From contig JAPLKB010000016.1 in the NCBI GenBank assembly GCA_026388275.1, forward strand, positions 1 to 64,000: a stretch of 64,000 bases of DNA, given 5' to 3'. Under the pieces are notes generated by a model. That model ran no database searches and had not been told where the DNA came from. It saw nothing but the letters and a program-made list of their open reading frames with translations. The DNA comes from Pseudomonadota bacterium. Lineage in GTDB: Bacteria; Desulfobacterota; Syntrophorhabdia; Syntrophorhabdales; Syntrophorhabdaceae. Positions 31,833 through 43,173 of this stretch are shown in pieces (the first letter of the stretch is position 1; every line of letters starts with the position of its first letter). The position numbers were made by a program, and so were the translations under genes.

Positions 31833-33350
31833 ATGGACCTTCCCCGGATCCTGAAGAAATATCGGAAACAGATTATCGAGGAGTGGGTGCATTCCCTGCA
31901 CACAGCCACCAGTGAGCGCTACAGGGAAAGACCCCTTGAGGAACTGTTTATCACCGTATCCGCAGCCTATGATGCATCCTGTACTGTATTGACAATTAAT
32001 GATTTTTCCATGATAGACTGCCATATCCAATGGATCACCAATATCCGCCTACGGGGCAGTTTTTCCCTTTCAGAGGTTCAGAATGCCTATGAGTATTTCA
32101 GGACAGGTCTTCTCCCTGTGCTTGTAAGGGAACTGAAAGGGCCTATGTTGCAGGATGTTCTCCGGAAATTAAATGGATGTCTGTTTTATACCATAACGAA
32201 GTTCAGCGACTATTTTCAATCTTTGCACGAGAGGCAGATAAAGAATTATGCCCAGAACCTTGAAAGAGAGGTGGAGAAAAGGACAAAGGAGCTTGCCGAG
32301 TCCGAATCAAAATACCGTGTCCTTGTGGAAGACATAAATGACGGGTATTTTGTAAATCAAAACGGAAAAATAGTGTTTGCAAATCAGGCTTATTGCGATC
32401 TGCACGGTTTTACATCTCGTGAAATGATAGGAAAGCCATATACTGAACTGGTAACGCCTAAATCATTGCCTGTGGTGCGGCAACTGTACGAGAGGAGAAT
32501 GTTAGGCGAAGATTCTGATGAGATGTATATCTATTTCAGACGCCATAAGGACGGAAGCAGTCTGCCGACAGAAAACATGGTAAAGCGCATTATTTATCGG
32601 GGTGAACATGCTGTTGCAGGAATCTGCCGGGATATTACCGAACGCATGGAAACAGAAAAAAGGATACGTGAATCAGAACGCCTTGCCCACATCGGAAAAC
32701 TCACCACTTCACTTGCCCATGAGATAAGGAACCCTCTGTCATCGGTAAAGATGAATATCCAGATAATCTTGAAAAACACGGTATTTAGCGGTAATGACAA
32801 GAGACGTATGGAGATAATAGCTAATGAGATATCAAGGCTTGAAGGGATTCTCAATGAAATGCTCGATTTTGCAAGACCGGTCCGGTTGAATCTTGAACCT
32901 GCTTCGATAAACGAAGTAATTGACTCCTGTCTTGAAATGATGGAGGCAAAAATCAGGGAAAAAAATATAACTGTTGTTAAAAAATATTCGAAAAAGATTC
33001 CTCTTGTTTCAGTGGATCATGAAAAAATGGAACAGGCAATCATTAACATATTGCTTAACTCTGTTGAGGTATTGCAGGAAAAAGGCAGCATAGAAGTCGT
33101 GACAAAACAGACGCTGAGAAACAATAAGGCTATAAAAGTAGAAATCTCCGACAACGGACCGGGAATAAGCACATCGGATCTCCCGTATATCTTTGACCCC
33201 TTTTTCAGCAACAAGAAGAAGGGTACCGGTCTCGGTCTCTCGAACGTGAAAAAGATAATAGAGGCTCACGGAGGGGTGGAAAGCGTTAATTTGCGAAAAC
33301 CGCAGGGCATACGCTTCTCCTTCACTGTACCCTTCAGGGAGATTAATTGA
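31833..33350 (+). CDS. PAS-domain sensor histidine kinase
   Basis: A 505-residue cytoplasmic kinase. Residues 5-140 resemble the RsbRD N-terminal sensor domain, 140-160 are a coiled coil, 160-275 a PAS domain (ESKYRVLVEDINDGYFVNQN), and then HisKA with H296 (SLAHEIRNPLSSVK) and HATPase_c with DNGPGIS and GTGLGLSNVKK. No membrane segments are evident, so it senses a cytoplasmic signal. Its stop overlaps the TTG start of the NtrC-type regulator by 4 bp, making them a cognate pair. The last 88 codons recur as a fragment at 41735-42001. Confidence 0.9.
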   Translation: MDLPRILKKYRKQIIEEWVHSLHTATSERYRERPLEELFITVSAAYDASCTVLTINDFSMIDCHIQWITNIRLRGSFSLSEVQNAYEYFRTGLLPVLVRELKGPMLQDVLRKLNGCLFYTITKFSDYFQSLHERQIKNYAQNLEREVEKRTKELAESESKYRVLVEDINDGYFVNQNGKIVFANQAYCDLHGFTSREMIGKPYTELVTPKSLPVVRQLYERRMLGEDSDEMYIYFRRHKDGSSLPTENMVKRIIYRGEHAVAGICRDITERMETEKRIRESERLAHIGKLTTSLAHEIRNPLSSVKMNIQIILKNTVFSGNDKRRMEIIANEISRLEGILNEMLDFARPVRLNLEPASINEVIDSCLEMMEAKIREKNITVVKKYSKKIPLVSVDHEKMEQAIINILLNSVEVLQEKGSIEVVTKQTLRNNKAIKVEISDNGPGISTSDLPYIFDPFFSNKKKGTGLGLSNVKKIIEAHGGVESVNLRKPQGIRFSFTVPFREIN

Positions 33351-34708
33351 AAAGAAAAAAAATCCTCATCATAGATGATGAACATTCTTTGCTTGAATCT
33401 CTGGATATGTTTCTTACCGAAAAAGGTTATGCAATAGAATGCGCCACTACAGCGGCAGAGGGTTTTGAAAAAAGCGATTCCTTCAACCCGGACGTGACCA
33501 TTCTGGATATCCATCTCCCTGATATGGACGGCCTCGAGGTGCTGGAAAAGCTGAGGCGTAATGATAAGAAAAATATAATTATTATAACGGCATTCCATGA
33601 TATGGATACGACAATAAAAGCGGTAAAATCAGGTGCCTTCGAATATATCCCAAAACCTATAGATGTGGAAGAACTCGAAAAAGCTATCGCCAGGGCAATG
33701 AAATGTTCGAGTACTGCTCACAGCGCCGATGCCACACCAGTTCCTCCTTTTGTTTATCAAGAGGGAAAGATCATCGGTAAAAGCAGGGTGATGAAGGAGA
33801 TTTTTAAAACCATCGGTGTACTCTCAGAAAACAGGGTTACGGTTCTCATAGAGGGTGAGACAGGCACTGGAAAGGAGCTAATAGCACGAGCAGTCCATTA
33901 CCATAGTCCATTCAGAAATCATCCTCTCCGCATTATTAACTGCTCGGCCATAGTGGGTACGCTACTGGAAAGCGAACTTTTCGGTCATGAGCAGGGGTCT
34001 TTTACCGGTGCCTCTTATACCAAAAAGGGGAAATTTGAGCTTGCCGGAGAAGGAACTATCTTTCTCGATGAGGTAGGGGAGATACCCCTTGAACTCCAAT
34101 CGAAACTCTTACGTTTTCTTCAGGAGAAAGAATTTGAACGTATAGGCGGTGAAAAGAAGATTAAATCGAATGCACGGGTGATTGCGGCAACAAACAGGGA
34201 TTTATGGAAAATGGTTCAGGACGGCAATTTCAGAGAGGATCTGTATTACAGGCTCAGCGTTGCAACAATAAAGCTCCCTCCTCTGAGAGAACGAAAACCG
34301 GATATCCCTCTCTTAATGGAATATATATTGAAGAAGATAAATCATGAGTTAAAGAAGGGTATTAAGAAAGTCGAACAGGAAGCTGCCCGGCAGATGCTGG
34401 AATATGACTGGCCCGGCAATGTGAGAGAACTGGAAAATGTCCTTACCCATGCTGCAATAAATACTCAGGGAGAGGTTATCCTGGAGGAGCTTATAACCCC
34501 TCTTCTTGGTAAAAGAGTGGTGAAAGAAACAAATGAAAAGGAAACATCACACGAACAAAGCCTTCAGAACATAGAAAAAGAATATATTATAAAAATATTG
34601 GACCGCACACACTGGCATCTTGGAAAAACATGCAAACTGCTTGATATGTCCCGTCCGACTCTACGCAACAAGCTCAAAACCTATGGCATCTCCCCCAATG
34701 GGAAATGA
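33347..34708 (+). CDS. Sigma-54-dependent NtrC-family response regulator
   Basis: A 453-residue regulator: a receiver domain (1-120; D10-D11, phospho-site D54), an AAA+ domain with Walker A GETGTGKE, GSFTGA in place of the usual GAFTGA sigma-54 loop, GTIFLDEVGEI and the R finger region, and a C-terminal Fis-type helix-turn-helix (LGKTCKLLDMSRPTLRNKLK). It starts at a TTG overlapping the kinase stop. It should activate sigma-54 RNA polymerase; a fitting -24/-12 promoter lies 240 bp downstream, before the transporter operon. The receiver half is duplicated at 41998-42363. Confidence 0.93.
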   Translation: MKRKKILIIDDEHSLLESLDMFLTEKGYAIECATTAAEGFEKSDSFNPDVTILDIHLPDMDGLEVLEKLRRNDKKNIIIITAFHDMDTTIKAVKSGAFEYIPKPIDVEELEKAIARAMKCSSTAHSADATPVPPFVYQEGKIIGKSRVMKEIFKTIGVLSENRVTVLIEGETGTGKELIARAVHYHSPFRNHPLRIINCSAIVGTLLESELFGHEQGSFTGASYTKKGKFELAGEGTIFLDEVGEIPLELQSKLLRFLQEKEFERIGGEKKIKSNARVIAATNRDLWKMVQDGNFREDLYYRLSVATIKLPPLRERKPDIPLLMEYILKKINHELKKGIKKVEQEAARQMLEYDWPGNVRELENVLTHAAINTQGEVILEELITPLLGKRVVKETNEKETSHEQSLQNIEKEYIIKILDRTHWHLGKTCKLLDMSRPTLRNKLKTYGISPNGK

Positions 34709-34946: not shown

Positions 34947-34962
34947 TGGCATAGTTATTGCT
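34947..34962 (+). promoter_or_regulatory. Sigma-54 (-24/-12) promoter
   Basis: TGGCATAGTTATTGCT: the GG and GC elements are exactly 10 bp apart, in the TGGCA-N5-TTGC pattern of sigma-54 promoters. It lies about 75 bp before the substrate-binding protein gene and downstream of an NtrC-type regulator gene. Confidence 0.8.
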
Positions 34963-35033: not shown

Positions 35034-36293
35034 ATGAAGAAGCTGATGTATTTTTCTATCTTTTTCCTGTTTATAATTTCTTGTTTTATCGGCCCATCAA
35101 TTGCCGCAGAAAAACCGGTAATAATAGGGGCACCTCTTTCTACGGCCTTTCTCTATGGATGGGATGCCGAGAGGGGAATTAAACTTGCCGTCGATGAAAT
35201 AAATGCTAAGGGCGGTGTAGTCGTTGGCGGGAAGAAAAGGCCCTTTCAGGTTGAAGTAATCGATACAAGGGACCTTGAGGCTGGCGTTCCGGTGAGCGAG
35301 GCACTTCTTGCCCTTGAAAAGCTTATCCTTGAGAAAAAAGCGGATTTTATCATCGGAGGGCCTGTCCGTTCCGAAGCAGCCCTGGCAGCTATGGATCTTT
35401 TGAACAAGCACAAAAAGGTAAGCATCCTCACTACAGGGGTTCTCACGCCCGCCTACACCAAAAGAGTGGAAGAGAACTACGGGAAATATAAATACTGCTT
35501 CAGAAATACAAGCCATGTGCCTGTGATGATGAAGGAGTTTATCGCGTTGCTCGAAGACCTTAAAAAGGGACATAATTTTACCAAAGCATATATCATGGTA
35601 CAGGACGTGGCCCATGCGCGTGGCGGCGGAGAATTTATGAAAAAGGCGCTGGCTGAGAAAGGCTGGGAAGTGATCGACATGAAGATATACCCCACAGGGA
35701 CCAATGATTATTCTGTCGGCCTTTCAGACGCAAACAAAAAGGGCGCACAGATACTTTTCCTATGGATGGATATGCCTGAAAGCGCTGTGCTGCTAAAACA
35801 GTGGAGCGATATGAAGTTAAAATGCCTCCCCATAGGGTTTGTGAATGCGGCCGAGCAGCCGGGGTTCTGGAAGGCAACCGGTGGAAAGGGCGAGTATCTT
35901 ATCGTAAACCTTGTCAATGGCGGCAACGCCCCGGCAAAGATCACTCCCTGGACTATGAAATTTTCTGATGCATATAAGAAAAAATGGGGACTTGAACCTG
36001 AAGGATACGGGACATCATCGAGCTATATGGCAGTATACCAGCTTAAGGATGCCATCGAAAAAGCAAACAGCACAGATTCTGAGGCTGTCATAACAGCATT
36101 GGAAAACCTCGATATCATGGGAGTATACGGAAGAATGCGCTTTGATAAAAAATCACACCAGATTATACCATCTTTTGACGCTAAAGAAGGAGCAGTAACA
36201 GGTATCATACAATGGCAGGCAGGCAAAAGGATCCAGATATTCCCTCCGAAATATGCTGAGGGAAAGGTTTTATTACCGCCCTGGATGAAGTAA
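35034..36293 (+). CDS. ABC transporter substrate-binding protein (branched-chain amino acid type)
   Basis: A 419-residue periplasmic protein with a cleavable signal peptide (about residues 1-25, ending SIAA). It is followed by the type I periplasmic binding fold of the LivJ/HAAT family: IIGAPLSTAFLYGWDAERGI, the FIIGGPVRSEAALA hinge strand and YGTSSSYMAVYQLKDAIE. In anaerobes such receptors often bind aromatic or other organic acids rather than amino acids. AAAGGGGG precedes the ATG. It is the first gene after the sigma-54 promoter and is separated from the permease by a repeat insertion of about 200 bp. Confidence 0.92.
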   Translation: MKKLMYFSIFFLFIISCFIGPSIAAEKPVIIGAPLSTAFLYGWDAERGIKLAVDEINAKGGVVVGGKKRPFQVEVIDTRDLEAGVPVSEALLALEKLILEKKADFIIGGPVRSEAALAAMDLLNKHKKVSILTTGVLTPAYTKRVEENYGKYKYCFRNTSHVPVMMKEFIALLEDLKKGHNFTKAYIMVQDVAHARGGGEFMKKALAEKGWEVIDMKIYPTGTNDYSVGLSDANKKGAQILFLWMDMPESAVLLKQWSDMKLKCLPIGFVNAAEQPGFWKATGGKGEYLIVNLVNGGNAPAKITPWTMKFSDAYKKKWGLEPEGYGTSSSYMAVYQLKDAIEKANSTDSEAVITALENLDIMGVYGRMRFDKKSHQIIPSFDAKEGAVTGIIQWQAGKRIQIFPPKYAEGKVLLPPWMK

Positions 36294-36308
36294 TATCAAT
36301 AAAAGAGT

Positions 36309-36336
36309 GGTAGAGACGCGATTTTGCGTCTCTACC
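36309..36336 (+). repeat. Perfect 11-bp hairpin after the binding-protein gene
   Basis: GGTAGAGACGC (36309-36319), loop GATTTT, GCGTCTCTACC (36326-36336). No T-run follows, so it is more likely an RNA-stabilising or attenuating hairpin than a full terminator. A palindrome GGGGTCGACCCC lies just after it. Confidence 0.7.
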
Positions 36337-36407
36337 ATACAGGGGTCGACCCCCTACGGGGGGGATATTGTGAGCCCCGGTGGATTAAAGTGTCAGAGCG
36401 ATAAATA

Positions 36408-36492
36408 GCTCACACGGTGAGCGAGAAAGGGTGGCCGGGGTACCCACCACAGTGGGTCGAGATTTGCTGGTGGAGGGGGCAACGTGAGCCCC
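36408..36492 (+). repeat. Repeat element, family A copy 4, inside the transporter operon
   Basis: GCTCAC-ACG-GTGAGC (36408-36422), GGTACCCACCACAGTGGGTC, GAGATTTGCTGGTGGAGGG and GTGAGCCCC. The middle part is nearly identical to the 13.63-13.70 kb copy. It ends 8 bp before the AAAGGAG of the permease gene. Confidence 0.8.
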
Positions 36493-36512
36493 ATAAAATA
36501 AAAGGAGCAGAT

Positions 36513-37382
36513 GTGGAAATACTCATTTATGGCATTATAAACAGCATTACTCTGTCTCTTCTGTCTTTGGGATTTGCGCTGGTATACAGTATAAGCAGGG
36601 TACCTAATTTTGCCCACGGCGCCCTCTATATTATGGCAGGTTATATAACATGGCTGTTTCTCAACAAATTTATCGCCTTTCCTTATCCCCTTGCCATCAT
36701 CCTGGCAATTGGCCTGACAAGTCTCGTAGGCGCTCTGATCTACCGTTTTGTACTAATCAGGATAAGAGGCATGGAAATCTCCGAGATCATTGCCACATAC
36801 GCAATAGGTCTTGCTATCCTGGAAGGCCTGCGGTGGGGAGGGCTAAGAGGCATGACATTTACTCTTCCTCCTTTTATTCCAGGCTCTATGCAGATCTTCG
36901 GAGCCAATATTGATTATCAGAGAATCATCATTGTCGGATCAGGCATCCTCATCTTTGCCCTGCTTTACCTGTTTACACATTTCAACAAGATCGGCCTTGC
37001 ATTAAGGGGGATTGCCCAGGATGAAAGGGCGGCCATGATGCTCGGTATAGATTCCGATATGACAGCCATAATCTCCCTTGCAATCGGTTCGGGGCTTGCC
37101 GGTTTTGCAGCAATACTCCTTCTGCCACTTGGGAGCATCATCGTAGAAGCGGGATACAATGTCCTTATCTTTGCAATAGCGGTCTGTGTTATCGGAGGAC
37201 TGGGGAGCTGGGGAGGGACTGTAGTTGCTTCATTTATCATAGGCTTTGCCCAGATTCTTACAGAAGCCTTTCTTTCTTCACACTACCAGATGGTCGTGGC
37301 CCTGCTTGCTATCATCATCACCCTGTTGATCAAGCCTTCAGGGATATTCGGAAAGCAGAAAGAACTGGAGGAGAGGGTATAG
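36513..37382 (+). CDS. livH: Branched-chain-type ABC transporter permease (LivH)
   Basis: A 289-residue inner-membrane permease with about eight hydrophobic segments. Family marks are ISRVPNFAHGALYIMAGYIT, FNKIGLALRGIAQDERAAMM (the EAA-like ATPase contact loop) and the VIGGLGSWGGTVVASFIIG end. The GTG at 36513 with AAAGGAG five bases before it is the natural start; a longer frame from 36417 runs back through the repeat element and is rejected. It works with LivM and the two ATPases. The partner gene follows after 3 bp. Confidence 0.9.
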   Translation: MEILIYGIINSITLSLLSLGFALVYSISRVPNFAHGALYIMAGYITWLFLNKFIAFPYPLAIILAIGLTSLVGALIYRFVLIRIRGMEISEIIATYAIGLAILEGLRWGGLRGMTFTLPPFIPGSMQIFGANIDYQRIIIVGSGILIFALLYLFTHFNKIGLALRGIAQDERAAMMLGIDSDMTAIISLAIGSGLAGFAAILLLPLGSIIVEAGYNVLIFAIAVCVIGGLGSWGGTVVASFIIGFAQILTEAFLSSHYQMVVALLAIIITLLIKPSGIFGKQKELEERV

Positions 37383-37385
37383 TCT

Positions 37386-38402
37386 ATGGATAAACAATCG
37401 ATGAGAAAAGAAAGAATTGACAGAGGATTGAAGGTAAGAACCGAAGGGATATATGCGATCTCATCGGCACGGGAAATCCTTTATCTTCTGGGCCCGAGGC
37501 TGTTATTGATTGGAGGGATTATTCTGCTTCCCTTTGTGCTTGAACTTGCTCCGTATTGGAAAAGAGTTATAAATATTATGTGCGTTTATGCGCTGCTTGC
37601 CCTGTCTTTTGACTTTCTTTCAAATTATGTCGGGCTTGTCTGCCTTGGCGGGGCCTTTTTCACCGGCGTTGGAGGATATCTATCAGCCATATTTAATGTT
37701 TACCTGGGTTTGCCCATATATCTTTCCATTCCCCTTGCAACAGTTGTCGGCGCCGCACTGTGCACAGTGCTCCTGCTGCCCTGCCTGCCCTTACGTGGGG
37801 TCTATTTTGCAATAATTACCCTGATGTATCCCCTCCTGCTTACCCGTGTCATAGAAGCACTAAATATCCTCGGAGGAACAAACGGGATAACCGGTCTGGA
37901 CAGTTTTCCAAACGCGTATGTCGAACAATATGCAATCATCATCATGATGCTGGTTTTTCTCTTCGGGATGAGGCGGTTTGTCAATCAGGATATAGGGCTT
38001 GTATTAAGAGGTGTAAAAGACAACGACCAGTCAGTCAGGGCATCGGGAATAAATGTTACCCATATGAAGCTGCTTGCAGTATTTGTGGCATCATTTATCG
38101 GGTGCTTCAGCGGGGCTTATGTGGCTCATCTGTATATGTGGGCAGGTCTTTCTCTGTTTGCCCTTGATTTTTCAATTATACCGATAGCTTCTGTTGTTAT
38201 CGGCGGAGGGGGAACGTTAGTAGGTGCTCTTATAGGAAGTTTTATTCTTGTCCCTCTCAGCGAAATTTTAAGGGCCTTCGGCTCCTTCAGAATTGTTATT
38301 TACTGTGCTATATTAACAGGTTTTATCGTTTTTAAGAGTGAGGGTATAATGGTTTATCTCCAGAGGAAATATCATCAATTTGAAAGATGGGTGAAAGTAT
38401 GA
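37386..38402 (+). CDS. livM: Branched-chain-type ABC transporter permease (LivM)
   Basis: A 338-residue permease of the LivM family. After a 40-residue charged N-terminus, about 8-9 membrane segments carry ALSFDFLSNYVGLVCLGGAF and the LRGVKDNDQSVRASGINVTH contact loop. The gene ends with the VVIGGGGTLVGALIGSFILV segment typical of LivM. It pairs with LivH as the membrane channel of the uptake system. Its TGA overlaps the next ATG by 4 bp. Confidence 0.9.
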   Translation: MDKQSMRKERIDRGLKVRTEGIYAISSAREILYLLGPRLLLIGGIILLPFVLELAPYWKRVINIMCVYALLALSFDFLSNYVGLVCLGGAFFTGVGGYLSAIFNVYLGLPIYLSIPLATVVGAALCTVLLLPCLPLRGVYFAIITLMYPLLLTRVIEALNILGGTNGITGLDSFPNAYVEQYAIIIMMLVFLFGMRRFVNQDIGLVLRGVKDNDQSVRASGINVTHMKLLAVFVASFIGCFSGAYVAHLYMWAGLSLFALDFSIIPIASVVIGGGGTLVGALIGSFILVPLSEILRAFGSFRIVIYCAILTGFIVFKSEGIMVYLQRKYHQFERWVKV

Positions 38403-39166
38403 GCGCCGAACCTGTCCTGTCAATTAAAGGCATCTCAAAGACTTTCGGAGGACTAACGGCGCTCTCTGATGTGAGCTTTGATATTCAGCAGGGAGATGTT
38501 TTCGGGATTATCGGGCCGAACGGGTCCGGCAAGACCACCCTTATAAATTGTATAACCGGTTTCATAAAGCCTGGGTCGGGTCATGTATTTTTTAAAGGAA
38601 AAGAGATTACAGCATGGCAGCCCCATAAGATAGCACACGTCGGCATTGCGAGGACGTTTCAGATTATGAGACCATACTATTCGCTCCCTGCATATAAGAA
38701 TCTTATCATACCCCTGTGGTCTCCGAGGGCGCGAAAGACGGGCGGATGGCGAGGCGGAGGAAAACACGGCGACAGGGATACCGTTGCCGTTGACATCCTT
38801 GAAGAAATCGGATTTGAAAGGGACTCGAGAGTTCCATACAAGCTTGCATCAGCCCTGCCTACAGGCTACCTGAAGCGCCTTGAACTCGCACGGTGTATGG
38901 CATTGAGACCTGAGATCATATTTTGCGACGAGGTTTTTTCAGGCTTAAGCATGAGCGAGATTGCCGGAATGCTACCCCTGATCGAAAAGATGAAAACAGA
39001 GGGCATAACCCTTATCATGGTCGAGCATAGATTAAGAGAGCTTTTCCGGGTTGCCAACAGGGTCATGGCACTGAATTTCGGTGAGAAGATAGTTGAGGGT
39101 GAGCCTAATTTTGTTATTGAGGACAAGCGGGTAAGAGAGGCATACCTTGGTAGTGAAGAGGTATAG
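38399..39166 (+). CDS. livG: ABC transporter ATPase (LivG)
   Basis: A 255-residue ATPase with Walker A GPNGSGKTT, a Q-loop, Walker B IIFCDE and the H-loop in IMVEHRLREL. The signature sequence, normally LSYGQQ or LPYGLQ in LivG, reads LPTGYLKRLELAR, an unusual variant at the residues that contact ATP across the dimer. The start at 38399 (ATGA overlap with livM, GGGTGAAAG upstream) is preferred to 38387. It energises uptake with LivF. Confidence 0.9.
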   Translation: MSAEPVLSIKGISKTFGGLTALSDVSFDIQQGDVFGIIGPNGSGKTTLINCITGFIKPGSGHVFFKGKEITAWQPHKIAHVGIARTFQIMRPYYSLPAYKNLIIPLWSPRARKTGGWRGGGKHGDRDTVAVDILEEIGFERDSRVPYKLASALPTGYLKRLELARCMALRPEIIFCDEVFSGLSMSEIAGMLPLIEKMKTEGITLIMVEHRLRELFRVANRVMALNFGEKIVEGEPNFVIEDKRVREAYLGSEEV

Positions 39167-39227
39167 ATCGAAAATGAAAGGTGAAAAGTGAAAAGTAAAA
39201 CAGAAAAAACAAAGAGGAAATCGAGAA

Positions 39228-39974
39228 ATGCTTGAAGCCTTTGAATTGATGGTTTTTTATGAGAATATGATTGCCCTCAACAATGTAAGCATCAAATGCG
39301 ATGAGGGTAGTATTATCGGGATATTCGGTTCCAACAGTGCCGGCAAAAGCACGCTTATGTATGCTTTATCAGGCATTATTCTGGATATTAAAAAGAAAGA
39401 GGAAATGCGGGGTGGAGAACGAATATCTGTATATGGGAGAATCTTTCTCGACGGAAAAGATGTTACGACGCTCAAGCCACACCAGAGGGCAAAGGCCGGG
39501 ATTGTCCTGTGCCCGGAGCGCAGGCGCATATTCGCTGAAAGCTCGGTTTTGGAGAACCTGAAAATTGGTGCCTATCTTGCCAATGCAAGAGAAACTAAAT
39601 CGAATCTCGAGTATGTCCTGAACCTCTTTCCCAGGTTAAAGGACCACCTGCATCGGCAGGGGGGCTTTTTAAGCGGTGGAGAACAACAGATGCTCGCTAT
39701 CGGAAGGGCGCTTATGGCTAATCCGAAGATCCTGCTGCTTGACGAACCCCTCCTCGGTTTAAGTCCGGCATATCAGGAAATTGTTATCAATGGCACAAAA
39801 GAGATTCGTGATACAAAAGGCATCAGTGTAATTATAACGGAGCAGTATGCAAGGCCTGTTATACCTATTATTGATCAAGGATATATACTTGAAAACGGTT
39901 CGAGCGTCCTTTCCGGGTCTGGAGAAGAACTTATGGATAACCCGGACGTAAAATCTGCATACTTTGGTGTGTGA
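39228..39974 (+). CDS. livF: ABC transporter ATPase (LivF)
   Basis: A 248-residue ATPase with Walker A GSNSAGKST, signature LSGGEQQMLAIGRAL and Walker B ILLLDEP. The family feature VLCPERRRIFAESSVLENLK is present. A 61-bp spacer separates it from livG, longer than elsewhere in this operon. The LivG-LivF pair would drive the LivHM channel. AGAGGAAA precedes the ATG. The acyl-CoA ligase gene begins 11 bp after the stop. Confidence 0.92.
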   Translation: MLEAFELMVFYENMIALNNVSIKCDEGSIIGIFGSNSAGKSTLMYALSGIILDIKKKEEMRGGERISVYGRIFLDGKDVTTLKPHQRAKAGIVLCPERRRIFAESSVLENLKIGAYLANARETKSNLEYVLNLFPRLKDHLHRQGGFLSGGEQQMLAIGRALMANPKILLLDEPLLGLSPAYQEIVINGTKEIRDTKGISVIITEQYARPVIPIIDQGYILENGSSVLSGSGEELMDNPDVKSAYFGV

Positions 39975-39985
39975 GGGGTCTATCT

Positions 39986-41641
39986 ATGGGATCATTTGAT
40001 GAGGAAAAAACATTTACCCGTTTTAGTGAAAATTGCAAGAAATATGCTTCCAAAATAGCCATTGTTTATCTTGGGCAGGAGTTTACCTATGGATATCTGG
40101 AGACACTCATAGATAAATTTGCAACAGGACTTGCCGATCTTGGGGTAAAAAAACAGGATAAGATAATGCTTTACATCTCCAACTGTCCCCAATGGATCAT
40201 TGCAAATTTTGCCATCAATAAGATCGGGGCTGTAGTTGTGCCGGTATCTCCCATATACACGACTTTTGAGATTGAATATATGATAAGAGATGCGGGCATA
40301 GAGACAGTCATATGTCTCGATACAAATTTCGTATATGTAAAAGAGATAATGGAGAAAACAGATCTCAAGCGGGTGATTGTTACAAACCTTGTTGATTTTG
40401 TATCCCCGGTGAAGCGGCTTATCGGTTTTATGTTCGATAAAATTCCCCATGGAAATGTCCAAAAGGGTGATAAAATCTACTTTTTTAAAGATATCGTAAG
40501 GAAAAGCTGGCCAAGACCGCCGCAAGTCGAGATTGATCCGATGAATGACCTTTCTTATATAATGTACACTGGCGGTACTACCGGTTTTCCGAAAGGCGTG
40601 CCGGGTAACCACATCGGAGAAGTCTCATATATCAACGACATTATGGAAGATGTTATTAAGGATTATGTTGATGAAGGAAACGATGCCGTGCTGATGGTAA
40701 ACCCCCTATTCCATATCATGGCAAAAGGCTTCTCTATAGCCTTCGGGTTCAATTTCGGGAATACGGTTATATTGATGCCGTTACCCGAGGTTGATCCTGT
40801 GCTTTCTGCAATTGAGAGGTACAGAGTAAAATGGATGCTCGGGGTTCCGGCACTATACCGAATGATGCTTGAGAACGACAGGATTGACCAGTATGACCTG
40901 GGTTCGCTCCGCTACTGTTATTGCGGCGGCGATGTCCTGCCTGCCGAGGTATTTAAGTCCTGGAAAGAAAAATACAATATACCGCTTTACCAGGTGTACG
41001 GTTCTACGGAAATAGGCCATGTTGCCTACAGTCCACTTAACAAAGAACCGTCCGCTACAACGATCGGAATACCTTTAAAAACAAGAAAATCCATTGTTTG
41101 TGACAGGGAAACCCTCGAAAAAGTCCAGCCAGGCGAACTGGGGGAACTCCTTGTTACTTCCCCCTACACAATCAAGCAATATATAAACAAACCGGAAGAA
41201 ACAGAATATTGCTATATCAACATTGATGGAGACACCTACTACCGGATGGGCGATTTTGTAAAGATGAACGAAGGTGGTGAGCTTGAATTCGTCGAAAGGA
41301 CTGCCGACATCATCAAATATAAGGCTTACAGGGTCTCGGCATCAGAGGTTGAAGCTGCCCTGCAGGATCATCCGACGGTAATCGGCGCCTGTGTTATTGG
41401 TATCCCTGACCCGAAAGTAGGTGAGAGGATAAAAGCCATTGTTGTGCTGAAAGATGATGCCAAGGGCATCGGGAGCACTGAGCTGATAAAATGGTGCAGG
41501 GATAGGCTTGCTCCTTACAAGGTCCCCGGCTACATAGAGTTCAGAGATATGCTCCCGAAATCAAAGGTTGGGAAACTGCTCCGTCGTGAGATCAGGGACG
41601 AAGAAAAGCGAAAAATGGAGAAAGAAAAGAAGCGGGTATAA
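39986..41641 (+). CDS. Acyl-CoA (organic/aromatic acid) ligase, ANL family
   Basis: A 551-residue AMP-forming ligase. The P-loop-like YIMYTGGTTGFPKG, the GSTEIGH adenine region, YYRMGDFV and the C-terminal catalytic lysine region (KSKVGKLLRRE) are all present. It activates a carboxylic acid to its CoA ester with ATP. Placed last in a sigma-54-controlled uptake operon, it probably activates the imported acid; benzoate-type, cyclohexane-carboxylate or medium-chain fatty acid are candidates. The start at 39986 with GAGGGG is preferred to the GTG at 39971. Confidence 0.9.
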   Translation: MGSFDEEKTFTRFSENCKKYASKIAIVYLGQEFTYGYLETLIDKFATGLADLGVKKQDKIMLYISNCPQWIIANFAINKIGAVVVPVSPIYTTFEIEYMIRDAGIETVICLDTNFVYVKEIMEKTDLKRVIVTNLVDFVSPVKRLIGFMFDKIPHGNVQKGDKIYFFKDIVRKSWPRPPQVEIDPMNDLSYIMYTGGTTGFPKGVPGNHIGEVSYINDIMEDVIKDYVDEGNDAVLMVNPLFHIMAKGFSIAFGFNFGNTVILMPLPEVDPVLSAIERYRVKWMLGVPALYRMMLENDRIDQYDLGSLRYCYCGGDVLPAEVFKSWKEKYNIPLYQVYGSTEIGHVAYSPLNKEPSATTIGIPLKTRKSIVCDRETLEKVQPGELGELLVTSPYTIKQYINKPEETEYCYINIDGDTYYRMGDFVKMNEGGELEFVERTADIIKYKAYRVSASEVEAALQDHPTVIGACVIGIPDPKVGERIKAIVVLKDDAKGIGSTELIKWCRDRLAPYKVPGYIEFRDMLPKSKVGKLLRREIRDEEKRKMEKEKKRV

Positions 41642-41734
41642 TGCAACTTTGCAATGGCTTGCATCCATTCGGCAACCTGTTGCTTAAACATCTTTACTAA
41701 ATATTCGCTGCTCACGGGAATATTTTCTTATAGG

Positions 41735-42001
41735 GGCAGGATAGAGGTTGTGACAAAACAGACACTAAGAAGCAACAAGGCAATAAAGATCGAAATCTCC
41801 GATAATGGACTTGGAATAAGCACATCGGATCTCCCATACATTTTTGACCCCTTTTTCAGCAACAAGAAGAAGGGTACCGGCCTCGGCCTCTCAAACGTGA
41901 AAAAAATAATAGAGGCGCATGGCGTGGTAGAAAAGGTGACTTTACGAAAACCTCAGGTCATACGTTTTTCTTTTATAGTGCCCTTCAGGGAGATTAATTG
42001 A
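41735..42001 (+). pseudogene. Histidine kinase C-terminal fragment (duplicate of the 31.8-kb kinase)
   Basis: Bases from about 41735 encode RIEVVTKQTLRSNKAIKIEI to the end REIN, matching the last 88 residues of the PAS kinase (31833-33350) with about a dozen substitutions. Only the end of the HATPase domain is present (G1 and G2 boxes but no N box, no HisKA, no sensor), so it cannot phosphorylate. Its junction with upstream DNA is abrupt, 94 bp after the ligase stop. It keeps the TTGA overlap with the receiver copy. Confidence 0.88.
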
Positions 42002-42363
42002 AAAGAAAAAAAATACTTATCATAGACGATGAACGTTCTTTGCTTGAATCCCTGGACATGTTCCTCACTGAAAAGGGTTATACAGTGCAATGCGCTACCA
42101 CAGCGGCAGAAGGGTTTAAAAAAAGTGATTCCTTTAACCCGGATGCAACTATTCTTGATATACGGCTTCCTGATATGGACGGCCTTGAGGTGCTGGAAAA
42201 GCTGAGGAGTAATGATAAGAAAAATATAATTATTATCACAGCATTCCATGATACGGATACAAAGAAAAAAGCGGTGAAATCAGGCGCCTTCGAATATATC
42301 CCAAAACCTATAGATGTGGAAGAACTCGAAAAGGCAATAGACAGAGCCATGAAGTGCCGGTAA
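41998..42363 (+). CDS. Free-standing receiver domain (duplicate of the NtrC-type regulator N-terminus)
   Basis: A 121-residue receiver, about 88% identical to residues 1-120 of the regulator at 33347, ending abruptly at RAMKCR-stop where the parent continues into its AAA+ domain. The acidic pair D10-D11, phospho-site D54, T81 and K103 are kept, so it could still take phosphate from the PAS kinase. It has the same TTG start overlapping the kinase fragment stop. It lies at the end of the operon that the parent regulator probably controls. Confidence 0.8.
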   Translation: MKRKKILIIDDERSLLESLDMFLTEKGYTVQCATTAAEGFKKSDSFNPDATILDIRLPDMDGLEVLEKLRSNDKKNIIIITAFHDTDTKKKAVKSGAFEYIPKPIDVEELEKAIDRAMKCR

Positions 42364-42534
42364 AAATGATATCTGTTTAATCCCGGATTTATCATTAGGG
42401 TGTACCTCTATGTCATTATTGACTGCTAACACCGAGTTCACCGGGAGCGTAAGCGATCCCTTGCATGACATGGTTGGGCATTTGTTTTATCGTTCTATTT
42501 GTCTCTTGTCAGCGGCTGGCCCCTTAGCTCTGCT

Positions 42535-42864
42535 TTAGGGTATTCCTACCAGAATATCTGTTCCTTCAACCTTGACAGCATAACACTCTTCATCCTCGGT
42601 TTTTATTTTTCCAAACCCAATTTTGGTCTCCCCGACAGCTTCTCCTGTCTTCACGCTGAATCGAGCGCCATGGTTTGGACATGTGACAATGCCTCCTTTA
42701 AGAACACCTCCGGCCAGTGAGCCTCCGGCGTGAGTACACCTGCTGGCGATGGCATAGTAGGAACCATCCACATTCACCAGGAGAACTTCCTTACCGTTTA
42801 CAACAACGGTTATCATCGTGTTTATAGGTAATTCACCTGTTGCGGCAACTCTTGTGTATTCCAT
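42535..42864 (-). CDS. Rieske [2Fe-2S] ferredoxin-like protein
   Basis: A 109-residue small soluble Rieske protein. The cluster ligands are C43-T-H45 and C62-P-N-H65 (SRCTHAGG and TCPNHGARF). It resembles the ferredoxins of dioxygenase systems and NirD-like domains, but no partner oxygenase or reductase is in the window, so its electron partner is unknown. The start at 42864 has AAAGGAG six bases upstream; an ATG two codons earlier would overlap the ribosome binding site. It is convergent with the preceding duplicated receiver gene. Confidence 0.9.
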   Translation of the reverse strand: MEYTRVAATGELPINTMITVVVNGKEVLLVNVDGSYYAIASRCTHAGGSLAGGVLKGGIVTCPNHGARFSVKTGEAVGETKIGFGKIKTEDEECYAVKVEGTDILVGIP

Positions 42865-43173
42865 TCTCATCTCCTTTCAAGGCATCGAGTAATAAGCTAT
42901 ATTATATAATAATTGAGTTGAGACTACTATGCTTGTTTATACTGCCAAACAATGAAATCAGCGCGACGCTTCGGGGATATACTCCATCAATTTGTTGGAA
43001 CTTTTTGCCTCTATCGGCTTTTCCATATTTTTGTTTTATTATATCTTCTATTCCGTTTTTTGTCTTTATTCTTATCTCAACTTTCAATAAGATAGAAAAC
43101 CCACCATTTTCAAAAACCTTCTTTCTTTGCTGTTATGTACTCCATAAAATACAATTTGAAATAGGTTTCCATG
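42865..43173. other. Spacer, no clear gene
   Basis: A minus-strand frame from a TTG at 43087 encodes 61 residues beginning KVEIRIKTKNGIEDIIKQKY; I do not recognise it, and it may be a fragment. The DNA is AT-rich. Confidence 0.4.

Follow-up and report, generated by a model that had tools for sequence, protein, structure and literature searches.

A truncated kinase/regulator copy behind a sigma-54-type operon in Syntrophorhabdaceae: seemingly a decaying remnant whose receiver may still be made

Directly behind the last gene of a transporter operon, we noticed a partial copy of the kinase/regulator junction that stands upstream of the same operon. On balance, this copy seems to be a remnant, now decaying, of a second pair of kinase and regulator, with a receiver that is possibly still made; selection probably does not maintain the short receiver as a regulator. 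The duplicated block lies at 41735–42356 (+) of the window, the whole 64-kb stretch of DNA that was analysed, is 86% identical to 33084–33705 (BLAST, E = 2.8e-208) and comprises the 88 codons at the end of the kinase, the TTGA overlap of stop and start (TGA/TTG) and the receiver. There are just two copies of this junction block in the whole 3.5-Mb genome (BLAST). The receiver frame of the copy closes at a TAA (42361–42363), two codons past the end of the homology, and the truncation point of its regulator is within a few residues of the receiver domain edge. The original prediction had proposed a repeat of about 630 bp at high similarity (33083–33716 recurring at 41735–42363), limited to the kinase tail, the TTGA overlap and the receiver, with a frame ending right after the domain, and the BLAST extent, the reading frames and the modelled fold agree with it on each of these points. 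No third remnant of the pair was detected in other parts of the genome; a 76-bp match turned out to be the end of recO. An Rfam search around the locus of the copy gave no credible match, and the stem behind it (42410–42500) was not more stable than shuffled sequences (z = -0.67).

The upstream, active pair is composed of an AtoS/NtrB-like PAS histidine kinase (505 amino acids; 31833–33350, +; Pfam PAS, HisKA and HATPase_c) and an AtoC/NtrC-like sigma-54 activator (453 amino acids; 33347–34708, +; Pfam Response_reg, Sigma54_activat and HTH_8), whose TTG start overlaps the kinase stop. The nearest NCBIfam model for the kinase is AtoS and the regulator is nearest to the AtoC model, both scoring below the cutoff of the respective model. 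The N-terminus of the kinase (31833–32130) has a weak, sub-threshold RsbRD_N match (E = 5e-4), and because of this the kinase may have a cytosolic, stressosome-like domain at its sensor end. A sigma-54 -24/-12 site, TGGCATAGTTATTGCT (34947–34962, +), the sole strict match in the window, precedes an operon of branched-chain-type ABC transporter genes and an acyl-CoA ligase (35034–41641, +; Pfam Peripla_BP_6 and AMP-binding). The site is identical, and at the same place, in the congener of the analysed organism, and a strict match is present behind the regulator in most relatives; indeed, the family as a whole conserves a sigma-54 site in the stretch from regulator to transporter operon, and two of them occur there in some relatives. 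Since this site is conserved and the order of kinase, regulator, substrate-binding protein and ligase is retained across the relatives read, the architecture indicates that the operon is very probably driven by the upstream regulator. The predicted location of the copy, at the end of a controlled operon, is thus borne out by the family-conserved site in front of that operon.

No terminator-like site was found in 41500–42900, which includes the stretch from the ligase to 42900, and the next gene after the copy (42535–42870, -) is convergent, so that transcriptional read-through from the operon may plausibly reach the copy. Around the copy, the promoter-like sites, 6 in number where 2.6 are expected, are all weak 9-of-12 matches and were not counted as evidence. 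The convergent gene, which faces the operon end, encodes a small Rieske-type [2Fe-2S] protein (CTHAGG...CPNHG motifs, by direct reading); a related sequence is found elsewhere in the congener.

The kinase part of the copy is an open frame of 115 amino acids (41654–42001, +) holding an ATPase remnant of 88 codons, which correspond to kinase codons 418–505. It covers only positions 23–109 of the Pfam HATPase_c profile and has neither the N-box nor a HisKA domain. Three of the five changes in the tail are at invariant or near-invariant sites, namely P26L, G64V and G75V (tail numbering), which affect positions conserved in all 16 aligned homologues. This tail cannot work as it stands.

The receiver part is a free receiver of 121 amino acids (41998–42363, +), in which Pfam identifies Response_reg only, with no output domain. 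Its AlphaFold2 model has the full five-strand/five-helix receiver fold (mean pLDDT 92) and ends right after helix 5. The alignment shows that D10, D11, D54, T81 and K103, that is the two acids, Asp, Thr and Lys of the pocket, are retained; all phosphorylation residues are therefore kept, as had been anticipated, and the complete fold and pocket correspond to the architecture of a single-domain response regulator. A Shine-Dalgarno sequence, AGGGAG (41987–41992, +), is also kept 5 nt before the receiver TTG, as read from the sequence. The short receiver and that of the active regulator share ~90% identity, and the surface usually used for kinase docking (helix 1, residues 13–25, and the beta5-alpha5 loop) is the same in both except for H13R, Arg being common at this position among relatives. 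Three of its five changes are at invariant or near-invariant sites, the alignment and the model placing M86T, T89K and I90K at near-invariant positions of helix 4. The chance that the five pocket residues survive five changes in 120 in the absence of constraint is ~80%, so the kept pocket carries no weight as evidence of function.

The genus is represented by two genomes, one per species, and the one congener was compared with the window. It has a copy in the same place, behind the ligase, following the same 77 bp of spacer and with the same 3' truncation. The kinase scraps of the congener's copy match window positions 32280–32313 and 32355–32519 and then jump to 33324 onward into the receiver. 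Thus, the window keeps the ATPase tail, lost in the congener, and the congener keeps PAS pieces, lost in the window. The first congener contig stops after 39 receiver codons of the copy and a second one resumes at codon 79, ending with the stop and TAAAAACAATATCTGTTTAATCC; the two contigs were joined by synteny across a 117-nt assembly gap inside the receiver of the copy. The window has TAAAAATGATATCTGTTTAATCC at the position matching TAAAAACAATATCTGTTTAATCC, and the common 23-nt 3' junction, TAAAAAYRATATCTGTTTAATCC (42361–42383, +), has a single exact match in each genome, directly behind the copy, being unique to this spot in both. Moreover, codon 89 is AAG (Lys) in both copies and Thr in 24 other receivers (the two active ones and 22 homologues). 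Because of the same position, the common 3' junction and the common K89, we consider the two copies orthologous, judging from their sequences, and the 3' truncation would most simply predate the species split. The duplicate, being also present in the congener, is thus older than it seems at first sight and not a recent local duplication. Since the window retains the ATPase tail and the congener PAS pieces, the ancestor must have had at least both, and it probably carried a longer kinase together with a truncated, receiver-only regulator.

Independent truncating lesions, a trait of decaying duplicates, were found in the kinase part, with deletions that differ between the two species. A broken receiver frame, another such trait, was not found: this frame is fully open in the window and open in the assembled 39 + 41 codons of the congener, with the ribosome-binding site kept in both species as far as read. 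As to the disabling mutations in close strains, which the original prediction had named as counter-evidence, the kinase part is indeed broken in the congener, but its receiver is open where readable. The cassette of kinase, regulator, transporter, ligase and copy is in different neighbourhoods in the two congeners, with the copy at its downstream edge: upstream there is a pldA-like gene in the window and recO, adjoining the kinase, in the congener, and the genes after the copy differ too. Adjacency to recO as the ancestral location was discarded, as it is absent from the relatives checked. A dispersed repeat family of ~220 bp is present on the congener's contig C7 (about 200–430) and at many places in the window's genome: a query of 501 bases, taken from the stretch following the congener's copy, finds ~50 places in that genome and, in the window, matches only the copy itself.

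The branch leading to the copy was analysed with a codon model (five taxa, one branch). For tail and receiver together, omega on this branch was 0.31 against a background of 0.076 (p = 0.010), that is, constraint is relaxed relative to the functional copy, as in decaying duplicates. The receiver alone gave 0.52 (p = 0.58 against 1 and p = 0.04 against the background, on this single branch). For the tail by itself, omega was 0.18 (p = 0.02 against 1). The unambiguous changes were 5 nonsynonymous to 6 synonymous in the receiver and 5 to 8 in the tail, amino-acid changes thus being below the neutral expectation in a binomial count test (p = 0.045 and p = 0.009, respectively). Counts below neutral and a raised omega together indicate that constraint held for part of the branch and was later relaxed. 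The simplest reading is past selection on a longer product, because the non-working tail looks no less constrained than the receiver.

At synonymous sites, the window copy differs from the congener's active pair by dS 0.27 [0.13–0.45] in the receiver and 0.39 [0.21–0.65] in the tail, against 0.75 and 0.89 from its own active pair; the two active pairs differ from each other by 0.93–0.95 at the same codons. In the junction tree, the window copy groups with the congener's active pair and the window's active pair stays outside (support 0.93). In the congener, the copy is identical to its active pair over 141 bp at the receiver start, including the first 117 nt of the receiver. Identity in the PAS scrap is 98%, and over the last 126 nt copy and active pair differ at seven positions. 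Since the window copy is nearer to the congener's active pair than to its own, and since copy and active pair hardly differ in the congener, some sequence has been exchanged between copy and active pair. The exchange may have gone in either direction, as ordinary genes of window and congener differ by dS 0.47–0.68 (recO 0.68, lolA-like 0.62, ftsK 0.47) and the operon genes by 0.23–0.38. Replacement of the window's active pair by a foreign allele, suggested by a dS of ~0.93 against 0.23–0.38 for the operon, was considered and is weakened by these baseline genes at 0.47–0.68.

Among 39 genomes of the family, the copy is present in two, both of one genus. Outside the genus, the best match of comparable length to the copy is 69% identical, and what the other family genomes contain is the active junction or paralogues that are more distant. 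In the other genera whose stretch behind the ligase was read (up to 1.5 kb), a receiver was not seen there. In one relative (locus L023, 10001–11357) the main regulator is split over two frames (residues 1–227 and 221–449) with one stop between, and a more distant full-length paralogue is present elsewhere in apparently the same genome.

Taking these data together, the history leading to such a remnant would be as follows. The common ancestor of the genus would have had a second kinase-regulator pair following the last gene of the operon, and the regulator of that pair would have been cut just after the receiver before the species split, as the common 3' junction suggests. The kinase part was then lost through deletions that differ between the lineages, so that the ATPase tail remains here and PAS scraps remain in the congener, and the second copy and the active pair have exchanged sequence, in either direction; both steps have left their traces in the sequences. 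Today, transcription of the operon may include the receiver, which may be translated thanks to a ribosome-binding site of its own. Several observations speak against a mere relic: the receiver frame and its ribosome-binding site are open in both species as far as read, despite the kinase being lost twice; the cut is within few residues of the domain edge; the 5:6 and 5:8 counts are below neutral, which points to purifying selection for part of the branch; and the first 117 receiver nt of the congener's copy equal those of the active receiver. Nevertheless, a maintained phosphate sink or competitor, as originally predicted, is not supported, given its restriction to one genus (2/39), an omega of 0.52 that is not distinct from 1, three changed helix-4 residues and a kinase shredded differently in the congener.

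A working single-domain receiver, made with the operon, that docks on the upstream kinase and drains its phosphoryl groups or blocks it, exerting negative feedback, is the main alternative to the decaying remnant, if a rather unlikely one. It would be in line with the complete fold and the kept Mg2+/Asp/Thr/Lys pocket, with a kinase-docking surface as in the active receiver except for H13R, with the location on the same strand directly behind an operon with a sigma-54 site and no terminator-like site found, with the truncation at the domain edge, and with the receiver and ribosome-binding site being kept in both lineages while the kinase was lost. However, omega of the receiver is not significantly below 1 and the copy is restricted to one genus. 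The parent pair resembles AtoS-AtoC and NtrB-NtrC, with a PAS kinase and an NtrC-type sigma-54 activator adjoining a sigma-54 promoter site, whereas the copy is devoid of the AAA+ and DNA-binding parts and of most of the kinase. Rhizobial CheY-type receivers act as phosphate sinks. The short receiver resembles these and LovR in being a complete, phosphorylatable receiver with no output domain; nevertheless, LovR with LovK in Caulobacter are maintained genes with measured phosphotransfer (PMC5964349), whereas maintenance and phosphotransfer of the short receiver are putative.

Free receivers are well known to exert feedback (PMC7078487, PMC9430884). FixT, a free receiver of Sinorhizobium and Caulobacter, acts as an inhibitor of FixL, being a negative-feedback product itself (PMC7078487); as would be the case for the short receiver, its production is controlled by the very system that is damped, and the possible target is the cognate kinase (PMC7078487). 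In contrast, FixT has no acidic pair, is not phosphorylated and has, in Caulobacter, a 4-Cys motif that binds an Fe-S cluster, whereas the short receiver keeps the pocket and its function is putative. Osp inhibits CckA in Rhodobacter sphaeroides, acting on the transmitter domain of this kinase (PMC9430884), and is likewise a single-domain receiver, of 120 residues, activated by the system's own regulator (PMC9430884). It differs in lacking the acidic pair and the Lys, in not being phosphorylated and in being widespread in Rhodobacterales, the short receiver being genus-limited in a decaying neighbourhood. With acidic pair, Asp, Thr and Lys all present, the short receiver is not a degenerate, non-phosphorylated receiver like FixT or Osp. 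These two support an inhibitor role more than a sink, because both are devoid of the acidic pair and not phosphorylated, and they give no precedent for a phosphate sink (PMC9430884).

We hold improbable a role for the copy in recombination with the active pair, in which gene conversion would rewrite or homogenise the kinase-receiver junction. The identity over 141 bp at the congener's receiver start, the PAS scrap at 98%, the window copy being nearer to the congener's active pair (dS 0.27–0.39) than to its own (0.75–0.89) and the tree support of 0.93 all argue for it. However, these come from two genomes only, a similar tree would also result if sequence had come from a congener that was not sampled, the baseline dS of 0.47–0.68 makes the 0.93–0.95 of the active junctions not clearly anomalous, and the exchange may be a by-product and not a function. 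Also quite doubtful is a feedback receiver born by truncation of the duplicated regulator and located at the end of the operon under this regulator's control, in which conversion from the active pair would keep the docking half matched to the kinase, as the identical first 117 nt in the congener would suggest, while the output half, helix 4, drifts. Helix 4 (T89K in both copies, M86T and I90K in the window) would drift freely in such a receiver because no activator domain is left to contact. An assembly or binning artefact is barely credible: both genomes resemble draft assemblies, and in the congener the contig ends fall within the repeat, but the window's 76-kb contig passes through the copy unbroken, the copies are 14% different, too much for duplicated reads, and two independent assemblies agree on the position and the 3' junction.

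If the receiver works, the locus would be a snapshot of the origin of a feedback receiver, in which a pair is duplicated, the regulator cut at the domain edge, the kinase lost and the receiver kept at the operon end. If the copy is a relic, an open frame and unaltered phosphorylation residues would say little about function in a nearly identical duplicate, and a neighbouring relic would be able to exchange sequence with an active signalling pair.
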